A DNA stretch of 64,000 nt from Benincasa hispida (Eukaryota > Streptophyta > Magnoliopsida > Cucurbitales > Cucurbitaceae), in the NCBI RefSeq assembly GCF_009727055.1, contig NC_052357.1, positions 86,851,249-86,915,248 on the forward strand, read 5' to 3'. Positions 30,225-62,680 of the stretch are shown piece by piece; within the stretch, counting starts at the first letter, position 1, and each line of letters starts with the position of its first letter. The position numbers were made by a program, and so were the translations under genes. The notes beneath the pieces were generated by a model. The model did not search any database. It was given only the letters and a program-made list of their open reading frames with translations, and was not told where the DNA came from.

Positions 30225-32011
30225 TGACGATACAATGGTCGGAAAAAACCATAATTTAATGGATTTTTTTTATCTTCTCCCGACGCTAATGAACAAACCC
30301 CCAATGGTTCATGGGGTCAGAAAAAGATACAAAATCCCGATGGTGCAAGGTTACCATCGGGATAATTGAATTACTCCCGATGGTGACACTAATTTTTCAT
30401 TGTCGGGATATAATTATTTATCCCAACGGTGGCTTCTCACTGCCGGGTGAATTCTTTTTATCCCGACGGTCTTAATAAATTATGACCGTTGGAGTTTACA
30501 AATTATTTTGACAGTGTTGTTTAGGGTCGACATAAAAGCCCCATTCTCCATTATGTTATATCAAATATAACATATAATCTATAGTTCAATATTTTATCCA
30601 ATACAATATAACCGATGGTTTAATTCTCTCAACAACGATATTTAATATAAATCCAATTTATATTAAATTTAATTATATGAATCCAATTCACATAATTGAT
30701 ATTTGAATCATATTCAAATATTAGATTTCTCTCAATTAAATACTTAATATTATAATGNATAAAAATATATTAAAGTAATTATATCATATATAATTAAAAT
30801 TTAAATAATTATATCATATATAATTAATTCCCGTTGAGCTAATGAAGGGACTTTATGGACCTGTAGCTTGAAGCTCCAACAATACGTGAATAATTAATTA
30901 AACTCTTTAATTAAATTATTCACCATCTGTTAACTGTCGGACACTCCACTAAAGACCGACAGCTGCACTCTTCAGATTACAGATAAATTTGTATGTCCAT
31001 TGGATATAACCAATCAACAATATAATGATCTTTCAAAAATTGCTCGTAAATATAGCTAGGCCAAAATTATCGTTTTGCCCCTATAGTTACATCTAACTTC
31101 TTAAATACCACTGATCCCTCTAATTAACAATAAATCATAGTCCAACTCCCTCTCGAGTCAGGAGAAGGTGTGACGCCACATTGTTCAAGCCTCGAAATTA
31201 GCCCTTAAGGGAGCAATTTATATACTTGCCCCGACATTGGGGAAGGAGTGAATTCCTTCTTATGTAGTTGTGTTCCCAACTCCCCAATCAGACAAATCTC
31301 CAAAATGGTATTCTTGTTGAGTCAGCTATCTAGTCACTCTCACCCATACAAATCAAAAGACCGCCTTTATAGGTAGAAGTTCATAACTCACTCAGGATTC
31401 AGATCATGTTACCTATGGTCATTCTAATGAAATGTAAGTTTCTATTATGAACGACGTTATAGAATGAGACTAAACATTTTGTGGTCCGGTCTTATACAAA
31501 CTCCTTTGTATAAAATATCCCGCTCACATGTCTCAACATGAATGGTCAGGATCAAATCATTTGTAACATTTTACAATAATTGTAACATCTACAAAGTAGG
31601 TCATACTCGTAGTGTGATAACTTGTAGAAATACAAGTTATTATCTCTCAAAAGTTGGAACAATTAGGATTCTTAATGATAAAAACACATTTGTCTAAAAG
31701 AAAAATGCATGGAATTCCTCGAACAATACTAGCCTTTATAAAAACATTTTTTTTTTGATAAAATTGCGTCACTAACGCATCTTATTGTAGGATTTCAATA
31801 AAACTCGCTAAATGTCGCAGGCTCAGCTAACGCAAAAACATGCATCTAAAGTATTCCAACTCAAAGAAGATACATTGGTTCATGCTGTTCCTGTCAAATC
31901 ACCAAAGTATGGGTATTTGACCGTCGGCATCTGAAAAGCAATTGAATTGGCAGGCGCCTGACTAAGGCATGGAAATTAATGTGTCTTATCACAAGTTGCT
32001 GAGAAAAACGC

Positions 32012-38327: not shown

Positions 38328-40205
38328 TGTTGGAAGGTACCAATGTTTAGCGGAAGAAACCAGGATCCATAAGCACTCTAATTCATTAATTTTGGCAGAA
38401 AAGAAAACATGCTTCAACAGAAAAAAATAGGTTTCATGTCATACCTTTGAAGAACTTCCTCTAAGCTTCGATTTAGCTGTAAATCTCCACAGGATCTTGT
38501 TGTAGACCATCCCAAGATCTTCTCTACTATCCTCTTGGAGCTTAAGATTGTGTTATGGGACTCAAAATAAGCTAGAATTAAGGGAATTTGTAGAAGCTCA
38601 CAGCAGCAACCATGGAGAAGAAAACACTTAGGAGAAGAAAACACTTATTCTCTCTAATTTTTCTCAAAATTTTGATCAGTTCCTCTTTTTCAAAACACTC
38701 CAAAATCTTCTATATATTGTAGACATTCATGCAAATAAGTTTGCTGCATGAGATGTACCTCATGCTTGGATTTAATGAAGAGTTATAGTGGGTTGTTGGT
38801 GAGCTAGTTAACGAAGTAAATGGAAAATCAAGTTTTCCAACTTTGTGTTTTTCTTTTCTTTTTCAATTTTATCAAAATTGATTTCAAAAATCTATTTTAT
38901 TTGATAAAACTGAAAAATGTTATTAATTTTACAAAATTAATTTCATAAATTAATTTTTTTAATAAAATTAATAAATAATTATTTAANAAATTAATTTTTT
39001 TAATAAAATTAATAAATAATTATTTAAACAATTTAAATAATTCTTATTAATTTAATATCAAATATTAAATTAATTTTTAACACAATTCCATCTTTAAATA
39101 TTTAAATCATATTTAAATATTATTTCTCCAAATTCATTTAATTCTAATTTGAACATTTCAAATTAACTTGTCACGCTATTCTAGAGCTTATCCATTTACG
39201 AGCTAGTAAGGGAGACCTTGCAGACCGATAGATCATGGGCTCCAACGATCCGAGATTAATCGACTAAACTCATTAAACCGATCTAACCTTCATTCGTTAA
39301 CTAATGGGTCATTCTTTAACTCCCCCATTGTAGATATATTATGTCCACTCAATATAACCATGATTAGTAAGTTAACCCTTCACAGGTTGCTCGTAATAAT
39401 GGTTGGGTCGAATCTCTATTTTACCCCCAAAATTACCTCTTGTTCCTTAAGTTCCAATGATCCCCTAATAAACAATTTATTTTTGATCTAATCAACAAAT
39501 CGAATCCCTCTCAAGCAAATGAGAGGGTGAGGCCTCTCATTTGAAACCCAGAATCAACACTTGAAGGGAACGACCTCTCTACTAATCCTAACCAGGTAGG
39601 AGTGAATTCCCTCTTGTACCCTATGTTTCCAGCTATTCATCCAATCTTATCCCTAAAATGGTAAGCTTATTGAGTAGAGGCAATTGGTCTACTCTCACCA
39701 TTTGCAGATCAAAGGATAATCCTGAACAAGCAGGGTTAGCTCAAGATTAAGGTTAAGTTACCTAGGTCATCACTTTGAAATAGTCAGTCTTAAACAGTAA
39801 AAAAACGTTATAAAGTAAGAGTGACAGGTTTCGTGGTCCGATCTTGCACAAAACTCATTTACACAGGACACCCCCACTCCTCATGTCTCAACATGCACGA
39901 ATTAGGATCACTTCGTATATAGCACTTTACAACTCTTTGTAACAACTATGGAGTAGGCCATATCCAATAGTGTTACTAGAATAAGGTACCCAACCTTATT
40001 CATATACTATAGTTTTTTTTGACTATTTACTCGAACTTGATCCACTTATATGTCTCCACATAAAGTTCAAGTACACATATAATAGTCAAGGGACTTAGGT
40101 TTATTGTATTTCTATAAAACAATATATTCAACAACAACTTTATCGAATTCTCAGAATAAGTTCTAATGTTTACAAACCACGAGTTTTAGGATATAAAACC
40201 CAACA
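38328..40205 (-). repeat. 5' LTR of C3 (family LTR3)
   Basis: 1,878 bases, starting TGTTGGGTTTTATATCC on the minus strand (40205) and ending CCTTCCAACA (38328). It aligns with the solo LTR at 20470-22359 and the solo at 45876-53375. It contains a single N at 38987 with identical sequence on both sides (see findings). Confidence 0.85.
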
Positions 40206-54032: not shown

Positions 54033-54760
54033 ATCGGTAAGACGAAGAAATGGTGTTATAAAATGTTAAAGTGGTCGAACTCGATACCGATAATTCCATC
54101 TGTAAACCGGTATTTTCTTATTTAAAAGGCAAATGATGGAAATTGAGACACAAATATTCATACCAAATATATGGGTCCCACCGCATATTTAAACACAATT
54201 GGATTGAGGACCTTCCAAAACTCAATCATATTATAAGATTTCATTACGGATGGTACGATGGATCCCACTTTTAATTACGATTACGAATAGATGTGTAAAC
54301 AAAAGCTAAAGTAAATCGATGGGGCCCACAAACCGAAATGAATTGATTTATACCTATTCTCCCGATGTAAATGTGGCCTAAGTGCGAATTTCAAAAGTAC
54401 AACTTGGAAAGGAAACTAGCCTAGACTGCAAAGAATAGACTACAATATTTTCCTTAATCAACCCAATTTAATGACTTTTATCAAGGATAGAGTACGAATC
54501 TTAGCACCCTCAATAAAAAAAAAATGGATTGACCAAGACGACAACACAAACTTCTTAAGCCAAAAAAAAAAAATAATAATAATAAAATAACATTAGCTTG
54601 AATTGAAAGTTTGAGAAGAAAACTTGAGATGGTATGTCTATTTCATGTCAAATCGTGCTTTAATAAGACTGGAATCTTCAGAGAAATTCTTTCTATATTC
54701 GTTGAAACTTGAAATTCTTGTCATATATAGATTTTTTTTAAATAATTTTATTTTAATATA
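54033..54760. other. Unique-looking non-coding DNA between G1 and the MULE
   Basis: I see no coding similarity and no clear terminal repeats. Several blocks resemble each other weakly (ACGAATAGATGTGTAAAC, CCATCTGTAAACC, GATGTAAATGTGGCC), which may be a decayed miniature element. A poly-A run and AAT repeats lie near 54565-54590. Confidence 0.4.
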
Positions 54761-54811
54761 TATTAACAAAAATAGGGTAGGGTTAAAAAGATTGACAAAA
54801 ATAGGTTTTTT

Positions 54812-54985
54812 AATCGTGTTCCTGGTACACGATTAAGCCTGAATCGTGTACCCGGTACATGAGTGCTTGTTGATCTGGCACGCGTAGACTGCCAATTTGG
54901 TAGTCATGCAGCGTTGACTGAGGTAATTGTGTACCCGGTTAACGATTACCTTCCAGTACACGACTTCCTTCTCCATTAAACCGCC
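54812..54985. repeat. Left subterminal palindromic motif array of the MULE
   Basis: Repeated short motifs built around TCGTGTACCCGGTACACGA: for example TTCCTGGTACACGATT, AATCGTGTACCCGGTACATG and CGATTACCTTCCAGTACACGA. Each is near-palindromic. The matching array at the right end is 60104-60345. They could be transposase binding sites. Confidence 0.7.
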
Positions 54986-55757
54986 ACGACCCTTCTTCTT
55001 CCTCCATCCGAAACCTTTTTCCTCTGAAAACTTCGATCTTCCTCCGTCTAAACATCGTCTGAAAACCTCCGCTTTGCCTTATTTTCTCTTGTTGTTGCCA
55101 CCGTGAGTCGATCTACCAAAGGATTTTCTTCATCTGAAGCATTCTTTTTCACTGAGGTAAAGTTTTTTCAAAAATTTTTCCCAATATATGTATTTGATTA
55201 TAAAAATGAGGATCAAGTTCGAAAATGTATAGTTTATGGATCCATGATTTAAATGTATAATCTTCATATATATATCATTTTGTTTGCATTTGGGCTGAGC
55301 TTAATGTGTAGTTTATGGATCCATGATTTATGTTTGGATATATGTTGAACTTAAAAATTAGATTTTGTTGGGCTATTTTTCTAGATGATTATGTTGGCAT
55401 ATTTGTTGGGCTAATTTTTTTTTTATGATTAATTTGTTGGATGATTATGTATTTGTTGGGTTGAACCTAGAAATATATGTATATGTTTATAAAAATGAAG
55501 ATTGCTTTTGGGCTGAATTAAATGTATGATTCATGGATATATTATTTTATTTTTATTTGGGCTGATTTAAATGTATAGTTTATGGATCTTAGATCTGGAC
55601 TAATTTAAATGTATAGTTTATGAATCTTAGATTTGGGCTGATTTAAATGTATAAAGTTTATGGATATTAGATTTGAGTTGATTTAAATATATAATATTTA
55701 GATCTTATATGTTGAACTTTGAAATTAGATTTTGTTGGGTTGACATATTAACATACT
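54960..55757 (+). other. Probable 5' leader and intron of the MULE transposase gene
   Basis: A CT-rich leader (54985-55130, for example CTTCTTCTTCCTCCATCC) is followed by TGAGGTAAAG at about 55153, a possible splice donor, then by T-rich sequence to the first long coding frame. Part of it is an imperfect tandem repeat (55561-55715). Confidence 0.4.
55561..55715 (+). repeat. 39-bp imperfect tandem repeat in the leader of the MULE gene
   Basis: Units beginning GCTGATTTAAATGTATA occur at 55561, 55600 (CTAATTTAAATG), 55638 and 55678 (GTTGATTTAAATA), each followed by a GTTTATGGATCTTAGAT block. Looser copies occur at 55230-55330. Confidence 0.8.
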
Positions 55758-57809
55758 TTGTCAACAATAACAATTGAAAAAATCATAATAAATATGTCGA
55801 TGCGTCATGAAGATTTAGTGATTCTTGAACTTGGAAATGATGGAGATAGTGGTATTGATGTTGAAGCTGATGAATTATTTGGAAACAATAGTAGTGGGGA
55901 ACATGATCTTGAGTTGATACCATCGGATATGTTCACCCAAATAGATTGGGAAATTACAAATTCAACATGTGAACTAGGGTCTACTTTGGAGGAAAGGAGT
56001 ATAGGTGTACATAATTGTAGTTTAATACAAAAAGAAATGTTGTTTAATACTAAAAAAGATTTACAACTTGCTGTAAAAAAATATTGTGTGACAGAACACT
56101 ACGAGATTATTGTAGTGGAATCAAATCAAGATCTTTGGTATGTCAGATGTAAATCATGGAGGGATGGTTGTGATTGGAGGTTACGGGCATGTCGGCATAA
56201 AAACTCATGGGTGTTCGAAATCACCAAACTTCAAGAGGAACACTCATGTTTGTTTTCAGAATTGACACAGGATCATTCACAGCTTGATTCAAATTTTATG
56301 AGTATCCAAATCCAAAATTTGGTTAGAGTTGATCTTAGGGTACCTGTGGCCCTACTCCAAGAAGCAATTAAAAAAAATATGGCTATAATATTAATTATAG
56401 ACGGGTGTGGCAAGCCAAGAGAAAAGTGTTGATTGATGTGTTTGGCGATTGGGAGAAATCATATTTAGAGCTTTCTTATTGGTTGAGTGCTCTTGTTCAT
56501 TACAATCTAGGAACACAAACAGATTGGTATTTCCTTCCATCTGATGTGTAGGTACGACTATTTTTTGTCAAATTTTTTGGTCCTTCGGTCTTGCAAGAGA
56601 AGGGTTTAAACACTGTAAGCCATTAATCCAGATCGATGGAACTCATATCTACAGAAAGTATAAGGGGAAATTATTGACTGCCTTATCTATTGATGCAAGC
56701 AGGCATATATTTCTCCTTGCTTTTGCTATTGTTGAAGGTGAAAATTCGTCCAGTTGGTCATGGTTTTTGTGGCATTGCGTGAATATGTTACTCAAAGAGA
56801 TGGTATTTGCTTGATTTTTTATAGACATAAAGACATTCTTGCTGCAATTAATAATGAGAAAATTGGTTGGAGTGAACCTAGAGCGTACCATCGATATTGT
56901 CTTCACCATGTTACCAGTAATTTCAATACGAAATATAAATCAAAGCAACTAAAAGATTTGGTGTTTAAGGCAGAAAATCAACACCAAAGGCGTAATTTCA
57001 TTTGATGCATGAAAGAATTGAAACAATTGAACCCTGAATGCCTTCAATATTTTTCAGATATTGACTTGAAAAAATGGACCCAATCACATGACGGTGGGTA
57101 CCACTATGGGTGGATGACAAGCAATGCAGTTGAATGCATGACTGGTATTTTCAAAAGTGCTAGAATGTTACTAATTACTTCTTTGGTTAGGCTAACGTTT
57201 TATCGCACAATACTGTATTTTGAATGTCGAAGACAAGAAATCATAAAGCACTCGATCGTGGGGAAATGTATACAGAATATGCCCTGAGAAAACTTAAGAG
57301 GTGGGAAAAACGAGTATCTGTGCATACGGTGACATCTATTGATAGGGAAAGTCAAACTTTTGAAGTACAAACTGGCATAAGTATGATTTTTCCCTATAAA
57401 GAACAACACACAAGTTTGGAGCTTGAAAGAAAGAATATGTTCTTGTAATAAGTGGCAGTCATTCAAGATTCCATGCTCTCATGTAATTACAGTTTGTAAT
57501 TACATGTGTTTGATATACATACCACTTATTGATGAATGCTACAAATTGTCCAATTTCAAGCGATGTTATGAAGGTCACTTTCATCCAATAGAACACCCAT
57601 ATTATTGGCCAGAATTATCATTTGCAGAAGTTCGTCCAAATGTGGACTTACTAAGAGAACAGGGTCGGCCAAAAAGTACGCGCATTCATAATGAAATGGA
57701 TTGGAGAGAGGCAAGCCAAAAAGTTCGATGTACAATTTGCAAGAGAGAAGGACATAACATACGTACTTGTCCACAACGTACATTAGGTGCTTCGTCTTCG
57801 AGTCATTAG
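55758..57809 (+). pseudogene. MuDR-type transposase
   Basis: The first frame (55758-56432, 224 aa) has the MuDR N-terminal DNA-binding region: LFNTKKDLQLAVKKY, WYVRCKSWRDGCDWRLRAC and TQDHSQLDSNF. A frameshift at about 56400 moves the protein to another frame. 56616-56775 reads the MULE core, with IDGTHIYRKYKGKLL carrying the first catalytic Asp. In the frame from 56754 the expected SDRH reads FYRH, so the second Asp appears to be Tyr. A single stop (57003) and two shifts (57220-57290 and near 57430) follow. The last frame (57423-57809) has a SWIM finger (CSCNKWQSFKIPCSHV) and a CCHC knuckle (CTICKREGHNIRTC) before the stop. Confidence 0.9.
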
Positions 57810-57814
57810 GTGTA

Positions 57815-58080
57815 TATTTTATGTATTTATATTTTTTATGTAATTGTATTTTTCATGTAATTGTATCTTTTATGTACTTATATTTTTTATGTAATTGTAT
57901 ATTTTATGTACTTGTATTTTTCATGTAATTGTATCTTTTATGTATTTATATTTTTTATGTAATAGTTTCATTTTATGTAATTGTACTTTTTATGTAATGA
58001 ATTTATTTTTCATGTAATTGTATCATTTTATGTATTTTTTATGTATCTTTTATGTAATGGATTTTTTATGTAATGTAATT
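57815..58080 (+). repeat. T-rich minisatellite between transposase and PMD gene
   Basis: Repeats of a 12-18-base unit, TTTTATGTAATTGTATTTTT and variants with ATGTACTTATAT, more than 12 copies. It fills the space between the two genes. It probably grew by slippage. Confidence 0.85.
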
Positions 58081-58095
58081 TGAACTTCTTAGGTA

Positions 58096-59800
58096 ATAGA
58101 GTTTGGTCCTTCTAATCTTGTACAACTATATCAACAAAATACGCATCGTTCACATTCGGTATGGGATAGTTCTTCTACAGTAGTTTTGAGTTGTTGGAGA
58201 AGGGAGGCATCTGCACAACATATTATCCCATTTGATCACCGCATTATTCCCTACGTTGAACAGGCAGGTTTTCTTGGGGTTGCACAAATCAGATTTATCT
58301 AGCTTGATTGGCACCTCATTCTGCTCTAGTTGAGTGTTGGAGACCATAAACTCACACATTTCATCTGCCTTGTAAGAAATGTACAATCACGTTGCAGGAT
58401 GTTGCCATACAGTTTGGGTTACGAGTGGACGGGCAAGCGTTGACAGGTTCACTACAATATGATTGGAAGAGTGTTTGTGAAGAGCTCTTGGGCATTCCAC
58501 CAGATGATCTGAAAGGGTCAAGATTGAGTATCCCCTGGTTGGCATCTCAGTTTCCAGAATTACCTCCCAATGCCGACGACATCAACATACACAGGTATGC
58601 ATGAGCATATATTATGCAACTTATTGAAGGATTTTTATTTGTTGACAAGTCAAATACTCTAATGCATCTCATGTTCCTCTCGCTACTGTCTGATTTTGAG
58701 CATGTTGGTACGTATTCGTGGGGTTGTGCATGTCTTGCATGATTGTATAGAAAACTTTGTTGGGCTACCAATGCACAAGCGTTGGAAATAACGGGGCCGC
58801 TGATATTACTACAGGTTTGGGCTTATGATAGATTTCCAATTATAGCACCACAAGTCCAGTTACATGCCCCAGATCATCGTCCACTTAGTGCCAGGTATTA
58901 TTTTATTTATATATTTATTTCGTTATCATTTTATATAAGAATATAAATTAATTGTATTTTTTATAATTTTTGATGGAGTGGTGTATTAACTGCCTCTGAA
59001 CAGTCAGCAAATACGTTGCTCGTGTACCGAAAAATATTTGACAGACTGATGCACAATTAGGTAACAAATGTATATATAAATGAATATTTAAAACATTTTG
59101 AATGTATACTTATCTTTTTTTTTTTTTTTGTTAGATTTATTGGACGCCATACACACAACAGATTTGGTCATCACTACCTGATTACTGTCGTGATGGTGCA
59201 GACATCTGGTTGACCATTAGCCCTCTTATATGCTTCCATATAGTAGAGTGACATTATCTAAATCGTGTGTTGAGACAATTTGGTCTGCGACAAACGATAC
59301 CTTCATTGTCCTATACATTTCCAGCACTACACCAGATTTATTTGAGAGGTAAGCACGACCAAGACTAGCGTCAAATCCACGCAGAATATATATCCTATTG
59401 GCATGGACGACATGATCGTTGTGCATAGGGAGAATTAACAAATGGGTCAGCTGTATCAGATAACTACTTTTCCTCGTACGATTCAATCACGAGACGATTT
59501 ATCACACCTGATGACGATTACTATTACTGCATAGTAAGAGATTTAAAATCAAATATTTTCTATATATATGATATGAATATTGTTTAATATTTATTTTTTT
59601 TATTGTACAGAATAATTTTATCGGAGATGTACAACAATATTCAGCACAACTTACCACAGTCTTACCAGAGTTGGGTTCAATGTGTTAGCAAACATTGGTC
59701 AACATAGAAGGTATTATTCAACAAACAAGACGATTTAATGTTGCTGATGCCGATCGAAGACATATTCGTCGTAGATGACAACGACAGCAGGGTGAACCTA
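58096..59800 (+). pseudogene. Plant mobile domain (PMD) gene, MAIN/MAIL1-like, multi-exon
   Basis: The protein reads in order as PMD (serine/threonine phosphatase 7 long-form-like, PF10536). Exon 1 (58096-58894) has HRSHSVWDSS, TLQDVAIQFGLRVDGQALTG (M-start frame at 58392), GIPPDDLKGSRLSIPWL, LLQVWAYDRFPIIAP and DHRPLSAR. Exon 2 (about 58977-59060) has ANTLLVYRKIFDRL. Exon 3 (59134-59535) has IYWTPYTQQIWSSLPDYCRD, GADIW, LRQFGLRQTIP and RRFITPDDDYYY. Exon 4 (59611-59800) holds the tail. Introns keep GT and T-rich AG ends. Stops at about 58604, 58740, 59249 and 59363 replace Arg or Trp codons. PMD proteins act in the nucleus in gene and transposon silencing; this copy belongs to the MULE. Confidence 0.85.
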
Positions 59801-60100
59801 ATTTAGAGAGACATGAAGACAACCCCCATGTGGGGTAAGGGCCAGGGGGTCATCTTTAAATTTAATGTAAACTTTTATTTTCAAATTAAAGAACTAATTG
59901 TAAATCTTCTTTAATATCATAACATCTTCTTTTCTTAATATGAGTGTAATAATTATGTTTTCATTGTAGATTAAATATATAATTAAGTTGAATAATGAAG
60001 AAATTTGTAGACCCGGTCCTAAAGTCTTAATATTGTTGTACATCTCCAATTAAAAAAAATAATTAGTCAATATATTTTTTTTTTAAAAAAAAAGAAAAAC
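59801..60100. other. Non-coding DNA downstream of the PMD gene
   Basis: AT-rich, with several A-runs and possible AATAAA-like signals. No gene seen. Confidence 0.5.
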
Positions 60101-60103
60101 AAA

Positions 60104-60345
60104 TCGTGGATCGGGTCCACGATTATGGCAATCGTGGACCCGGTCCACGAGCTGTCTCTTATACACATCTAGATGTGTATAAGAGACAGATCATGGATCG
60201 AATCCACGATTATGGCAATCGTGGACTCGGTCCACGAGTCTCGTGTGACCGGTCAACCAAATTAGCCGACGTGGTGCTGACTGGATTAAACGTTAATCGT
60301 GTACCCTATACATGATTTTGCCACATGGTAATCGTGGTACACGAT
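60104..60345. repeat. Right subterminal palindromic motif array of the MULE, with tandem duplication
   Basis: Motifs such as ATCGTGGACCCGGTCCACGA and ATCGTGGTACACGATT mirror the left array. A block starting TCGTGGATCGGGTCCACGAT (60106-60151) is repeated almost identically at 60190-60237, with a sequencing-adapter palindrome between the copies. Confidence 0.8.
60152..60189. other. Tn5/Nextera mosaic-end palindrome (sequencing artefact)
   Basis: Two copies of the 19-base Tn5 mosaic end, CTGTCTCTTATACACATCT at 60152-60170 and its exact reverse complement at 60171-60189, lie head to head. This is the transposon end used in Nextera libraries, not a plant sequence. The forward translation gives the peptide SYTHLDVYKRQ, well known as an adapter contaminant in protein databases. 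Confidence 0.97.
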
Positions 60346-60427
60346 TTCACTACCCTACTTTTGTCAATATTTTTTACTCCCACCTATTTTTAAAAATACT
60401 TTCCCATATACCCCATTTTTGTCAATA

Positions 60428-62680
60428 ATTTGAAAAAATACTATATTTTTTAACTTGATCCTCAAATATATGGAAAAATTTGCACAATTTTATGTAATTG
60501 CAACTGCATTCACAATCTCAAATTCTACCATTTTCAACCCATCCTTAATAAAAGCACAAAAAATACAAAGATAAACGCCAAAATCAAGGATCAAGAACAA
60601 GATTTCTTTCTATTTTCACATGATTCAATAACTAACTAGAATATTTCACAAGATCTTTTTCCAATATACTGAAATAAACCTATAAATTGCAATGCATCGC
60701 AGTGATGCTATGGGCTAGTTGAATACATATATTTAATTTGAGATAATTTTGAATAAGAAGTGAAAAATTCATTACGAGCAATATAAAAAAGTCACACGTA
60801 ACATAGCTAAACATTTAAGTTACAATTGGCTAACCAAGTTTTTTTTAAAAAAAATTAAAAAGTACTTATATGAATTGTGTGCGTTAGTAAATTTTCTTAA
60901 TTAGGAGAATTGATAAAGGCTTTTAATTATGTGAATGAGTAGTTGTTATTTATTTATTTAAGAAAATTGACCGGATAATTTAATTTTTAAAAGTGTTTTA
61001 AATGTGCATTTTAATTTTAGAAAAGTAATTATAAATGAGTTTGAAATTAATAAGATTAAGATTAAAAGTACTATTTAGTCCCTATATTTGAAGTGTTTTC
61101 AATTTTACTTCATATGTTGTTAGTTTAATTTTTATACTTTCATAAATATTAAGATAATAATAATTTCCATATAAGAAAATATAATATGTGAATATTTGTT
61201 TTTAAAATTTATAGTAAAAATATTAATAGATAATTAAAAAAATTCTAAAAAATAACAAAGAAAAAAAAATAGTAGGAGAAACTATGTTTAAGATTTATTG
61301 AAAAGATGTGGACTATATAAAATTGGTAATTAGTACAACTAAATTGAACAAATCTAAAAATATAGAGGCTGAAATTATATTTAAAATATTTCTTGTAAAC
61401 GCTTTATTAACACGTACTGTTTTGTTTTTTACAATATTGTTATACATTTCTTCATATAATGTAATTAAAGACTATCGATTCAAAATTAAGTGAATGCACA
61501 AAATGGTAGTTATTAAGATTTTTTTTTTTAATAACATTTCCTATTTCTTGTTTCTATTTCTCATTTTTCAATAAACGGATTTATTTGATAATTATTTTCG
61601 TTTCTTATTTCTAAAATTTATGAAATATTTCTAAAAATGAAATCAAATTCGAAAAGCTACACAAAGTGGTTTTTCCTATTCTTGTTTCAATATGTATTTG
61701 AACGTGCATCCAAGTTATCCTTCTTTACTCCCTGCAGTTTTGAGTTCGAATCCCACTTAATGCAATTTTTTCTTTTACTTATTTTTATATTATATATATA
61801 TTTTTTGTTTTTTAATGATATATTCCTTTTGTTTTATTTTTAGAAATATTTCTTTTTTTTTCTTTTAAATATTTTTTTCTGTTTTTATTTATTATATTTC
61901 TTTTTTTACTTTTTCTTTTTTATACTGTATTGCTTTTGTTTTATTCATCATATTTCTAAAGTTTGCTATATTTATATAGTAGGATATTAGTTTAATTTTG
62001 TATTATAAATTTTTCAATATTTAGCTTTATATATTATTTTGATTTTCAAATTTCAAATTTTAATATATATATTTAAATATTTGAATTTTGAGTTTTAAAT
62101 TTTGGAATAAGCATGTTTATATATTATTTCAAATTTAAATTTATTATTTTTTAGTACATTTAAAACTAGTTAGAATTTTACAATATATAAATTTGGTTTA
62201 CTAAGACATTCATTTCAACTCACTTTAATAGATTACAATTATGGTATTTATATAATAACATATTTTGAGTTAAATTTGAGTTAAAATCATTCTTACAAAT
62301 GATTCGAGCGAGAAATTATAATATTGTAAATCAAATTTTAGCAACATATAAATGATAAAGTCTAAGTAAAGTTTTTTAAGACACCTCAAGTGCTTAGGAT
62401 ATATGATTAATTATCTTCTTTAAGTAGGAGACAGTTAATAAAGGAGACTAAATTAACATTTAATGTATAATTGGTTAGTTATATTGGTTAAATCAATGAT
62501 ATGACCATGCAGTATAAAATTCAAAATTTTCTCAAAATATCTATGGATAATGAGATATTTAGGTATATGGTGTCTAAGATTTGATTTTTGACAAGATACA
62601 CTAGCTCCTACAAGGATTTAGAGAAATCCATGTTAAGATTTATCCTGGTTGGCATAGTATTGGAAGGAAAATTTTAATTT
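60428..62680. other. AT-rich intergenic DNA, no gene
   Basis: Long A/T runs and short frames (61308-61493, 61637-61843) of low complexity. I find no transposon termini except the MITE-like repeat listed separately. It may be unique DNA flanking the MULE. Confidence 0.55.
61530..61690. repeat. MITE-like repeat, second copy
   Basis: Related to 28857-29045: CTATTTCTTGTTTCTATTTC, TTTGATAATTATTTTCG and TGAAATATTTCTAAAAATG correspond to blocks there. Ends are not defined. Confidence 0.4.

Follow-up and report, generated by a model that had tools for sequence, protein, structure and literature searches.

A palindrome of two Tn5 mosaic ends inside a decayed MULE of the Benincasa hispida assembly is very probably an untrimmed mate-pair junction adapter

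The mosaic end is a hyperactive form derived from the natural ends of Tn5, and its oligonucleotide is printed with the 19 bases CTGTCTCTTATACACATCT in excerpts of PMC3046479; excerpts of PMC5765368 describe it as a mosaic of the outside and inside ends. In Nextera mate-pair tagmentation, biotinylated junction adapters are used and their sequence is trimmed (PMC6298255, in excerpt), and adapter clipping or trimming appears as routine in the excerpted text of PMC5066668 and PMC5053417. The closest described relative of the locus reported here is a biotin-labelled ring adapter that circularises fragments of ~4 kb. Its 38 bases, as printed in an excerpt of PMC7357533, are identical to ours, and as one string they were not found elsewhere in the searched literature.

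We analysed a stretch of 64,000 nucleotides of B. hispida DNA, referred to as the window. A motif scan of these 64 kb found CTGTCTCTTATACACATCT exactly at 60152-60170 on the plus strand and at 60171-60189 on the minus strand. The segment 60152-60189 therefore consists of CTGTCTCTTATACACATCT followed by its exact reverse complement, and the 38-mer is its own reverse complement, which verifies the original prediction of a perfect 38-base head-to-head pair of Tn5 mosaic ends at this position. The two ends touch back to back with no cargo between them, and their target-joining ends face outward. No further match to CTGTCTCTTATACACATCT with up to 3 mismatches was found in the window, and shuffled windows gave a mean of 0.02 matches, with two matches in 0 of 100 shuffles. 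The features of the locus are the following.

54725-54950, plus strand: left terminal region of the MULE, aligned with the right terminal region.
55752-57806, plus strand: broken MULE transposase region with domain matches to DBD_Tnp_Mut, MULE (in two frames) and SWIM.
58350-58943, plus strand: plant mobile domain (PMD) pieces inside the element, from domain matches.
60103-60151, plus strand: copy A of a MULE end unit, stopping exactly at the adapter; 45/49 identical to copy A'.
60152-60189, no strand: mate-pair junction adapter (near certain), two Tn5 mosaic ends back to back, assigned from the exact match, the palindrome, PMC7357533 and copies in unrelated assemblies.
60190-60238, plus strand: copy A' of the MULE end unit, beginning exactly past the adapter; the part from 60214 rightward aligns with the opposite end of the element.
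60214-60446, minus strand: right terminal region of the MULE; scores 93 in a gapped local alignment with the left one, ungapped pieces 74-78%.

The locus shares with the ring-adapter junction, as excerpted in PMC7357533 and PMC6298255, the identical 38 bases in the identical orientation, but it lies inside an assembly instead of in reads and has a duplicated unit on its flanks. Back-to-back mosaic ends are the layout of a mate-pair circularisation junction and not of ordinary Nextera read-through, an orientation rule that we infer from the protocol. The claim that Nextera adapters carry this end thus holds for the engineered 19-base end, whereas the orientation is that of the circularisation junction and not of a plain adapter end. 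Short-insert Nextera read-through or an adapter dimer would supply the same 19 bases. However, tagmentation geometry suggests that the two ends of a dimer would come in the opposite order, and no s5 or s7 tail lies beside the mosaic end (best matches in the window, 4/14 and 3/15 mismatches), which makes this source quite improbable.

A wider search of the window for s5, s7, TruSeq, P5, P7, a lox half-site, the lox linker and SMRTbell gave no credible match. The nearest s7 match (3/15 mismatches, 60238-60252) lies inside the terminal-repeat alignment and is at about chance level, since by our own estimate ~1.6 such matches are expected on both strands of 64 kb. The lox half-site matched with 1/13 mismatches at 39907, and the full lox linker had at least 17/42 mismatches throughout the window.

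Like the ends of Tn5/IS50, the palindrome derives from the natural outside and inside ends, as the excerpted sources describe the mosaic end, but it is the engineered form, without a transposon body and without the 9-base target duplication: the 9 bases to the left and right of the adapter agree at only 4/9 positions. A real insertion of a Tn5-derived adapter or an engineered transposon into plant DNA, for example in a laboratory line, is compatible with the sequence alone; with nothing between the two ends and flanks unlike a target duplication, it is highly improbable.

The surroundings are those of a transposable element. DBD_Tnp_Mut and MULE exceed their Pfam cut-offs, identifying a MuDR/MULE transposase, and a second MULE piece scores below its cut-off (18.8 vs 27.6 bits). 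With SWIM and plant-mobile-domain pieces also found, the MULE setting named in the original prediction is borne out: 54725-60446 is a decayed MULE in which transposase and plant mobile domain pieces lie between long, diverged terminal inverted repeats that are old and only moderately alike. The left end (54725-54950) aligns with the reverse complement of the right end (60214-60446), covering the right half of A' and ending short of the adapter, and the score stayed at 93 when sequence beyond the adapter was added. Units of this kind recur in the element's ends, and copy A accordingly has a resemblance of its own to the left end (77% over 52 nt, 54812-54863). MULE target-site duplications are about 9-11 bases long; the search near the ends of this element gave only AT-rich low-complexity matches. 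The stretch 54700-60151 had no match in the plasmid collection.

The terminal inverted repeats of a MULE account for the flanks of the adapter but not for the 38-mer, which is foreign to the element. One might suspect a palindrome native to the interior of the MULE end, as the end units are near-palindromic themselves (inverted pairs I7 and I19). Yet none of the 12-mers of the 38 bases occurs a second time in the window, not even at the opposite end of the element; this same-strand search covers both strands, because the 38-mer is its own reverse complement. Exact copies in unrelated bacterial assemblies also contradict a natural palindrome, which we consider the least probable of all the readings discussed here.

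These copies are numerous. A scan of the genome collection found the exact 38-mer in at least 120 stretches of bacterial assemblies; the matches listed come from 19 organisms, counted from record titles, and include cyanobacteria, two enterococci, two streptomycetes, a Rhizobium, a Pseudomonas and several metagenome bins. The viral collection contained it in 7 stretches from 6 contigs and the plasmid collection in 5 of 72,556 records, and no match was reported among 20,395 E. coli records or 50,697 phage records. An identical 38-mer in unrelated genomes, patchy by project, is what one expects of a reagent and not of shared descent. The annotated public plasmids NZ_MT039157.1 and NZ_KY978628.1 contain the adapter, and in NZ_MT039157.1 the listed site closes the record, occupying its final 38 bases. 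Eight bacterial stretches (L041, L044, L075, L082, L085, L088, L089 and L093) hold two to four exact junction adapters in a cluster. The flanks of one viral junction (L125) were searched for a clean relative among the phages, with no match.

The palindrome also surfaces in proteins. The open frame across it (60067-60315) retrieved 35 proteins at E ≤10 among 175 candidates from the protein collection, and the whole of VSYTHLDVYKRQ is present in 35/35 of them, at varying positions; the candidates were picked by shared 5-residue words and most E-values are weak, so that the result speaks to existence and not to frequency. It shows that VSYTHLDVYKRQ occurs across unrelated database proteins; nothing further follows from it. 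Neither VSYTHLDVYKRQ nor LSLIHISEPTRR was found in the searched literature; DVYKRQ does occur there. The description of the translated peptide as a known database contaminant is therefore backed by the protein collection but not by the searched literature.

Adapter origin of the 38-mer is near certain, judged from its letters and their distribution, because an exact engineered sequence coincides with copies in unrelated assemblies and with VSYTHLDVYKRQ in 35/35 proteins. The 38-mer is very probably a Nextera-type mate-pair junction adapter that escaped trimming before assembly or gap filling, an artefact of a known kind. The original prediction of a sequencing adapter embedded in the assembly was right in substance: the exact 38-mer is printed as a ring adapter and recurs across unrelated assemblies.

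The second striking feature of the locus is the duplicated unit. A repeat search returned a pair of 53 nt with 91% identity (60099-60151 and 60186-60238), of which the second member takes in the last 4 adapter bases, so that the clean pair is 49 nt long. Two abutting copies do flank the adapter, as had been proposed, but the unit is slightly longer than the ~46 bases given. A and A' agree at 45/49 positions with zero offset on either side of the adapter, and their differences from left to right are G>A, G>A, G>A and C>T. In a control over the window with a 38-nt spacer, the junction score of 33 was reached by 0 of 9,043 sampled positions, and a threshold of 14 by 17.

The window contains two single Ns. 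The one at 38987 lies between exact 40-base direct duplications that abut it on both sides (38947-39027) and looks like an unmerged contig overlap, the second such case in the window; no flanking duplication was found at the other, at 30758.

We compared the flanks of the adapter across 155 junctions without duplicates, 154 fetched from the matches listed plus the window. Requiring at least 60 nt on each side removed 7 and left 148 (147 fetched plus the window). With 200-nt flanks, an abutting duplication was present in 28/147 fetched junctions and in the window, whereas three mispairings of the flanks, cut to 80 nt, gave 0 duplications each. With equal 100-nt flanks, the count was 24/147 plus the window vs 0 in each of ten mispairings; it drops from 28 to 24 because duplications longer than the flank cease to line up. 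Another adapter lies within 200 nt at 6 of the 25 duplication junctions (100-nt flanks, window included), and 19 of the 125 junctions without a neighbouring adapter show a duplication, the window counted. The copies are identical in 20/28 duplications and differ in 8/28; matched by record title, the 28 are spread over 9 of the 19 organisms and are not 28 independent events. An abutting duplication is thus a recurrent scar of junction adapters, common but not general, because none was seen in 119/147 fetched junctions with 200-nt flanks.

The 9-base comparison was possible at 152 of the 155 junctions (window included), the other 3 lying too near an end. Agreement was found at no position in 4 junctions, at one in 21, two in 31, three in 35, four in 32 (the window among them), five in 19, six in 6, seven in 3 and all nine in 1. 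This last junction (L058, a 3-kb stretch around 7830) has 9/9 bases equal across the adapter, as expected of neighbouring tagmentation fragments or of a target duplication.

For the assembly step that left the adapter we infer the following course. Tn5 transposomes would have tagged both ends of kilobase plant DNA fragments, circularisation would have joined the two tags, and reads would have run through the joint. An assembler or gap filler may then have extended contig ends into the untrimmed junction adapter, and two adapter-bearing contig ends may have been joined via the adapter in place of the MULE end repeat sequence in which they overlap. Such a join would yield A, adapter and A', with one unit to the left and one to the right. 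Given 4 mismatches in 49 positions between A and A', one of the two could derive from a different allele or copy of the element; alternatively, the adapter may split a genuine tandem pair. Several observations count against the untrimmed-adapter reading: A and A' are non-identical (45/49), whereas 20/28 other duplications are identical; 119/147 fetched junctions lack a duplication of this kind, as does the single N at 30758; and the distribution of the 38-mer is patchy, without a match in the E. coli and phage collections.

If the 38-mer is a mate-pair junction artefact, its flanks could also be a true mate-pair joint of places kilobases apart that were fused in the assembly. A junction read is physically such a joint, and A and A' differ at 4/49 positions, as two element copies would. 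However, the element's left end aligns just to the right of the adapter, from 60214 on, and the transposase pieces to the left are in the expected order; both sides thus fit one element, although the flanks could be two copies of one family. We regard such a long-range chimera as rather unlikely, and a local joining scar looks likelier. The terminal alignment that reaches to the right of the adapter is weak evidence, given the age of the ends, for a local join that left an extra unit. The original suggestion, from the duplication, was that a chimeric or unjoined fragment was merged here; the word "chimeric" goes further than the data, and a local bad join is mildly favoured.

The segment 60152-60189 is, on the evidence of an exact adapter match, almost surely a laboratory leftover and not biology, and the site should be masked. 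Annotation or transposon calls over the site are suspect, as originally warned: within 60103-60238 the 38 adapter bases, and possibly an extra copy of the unit, would introduce an error into any gene model, transposon structure or terminal-repeat boundary that spans them. An abutting duplication is a useful sign of an adapter that hides a contig overlap, and at such duplications excising the adapter alone would leave a false tandem repeat.
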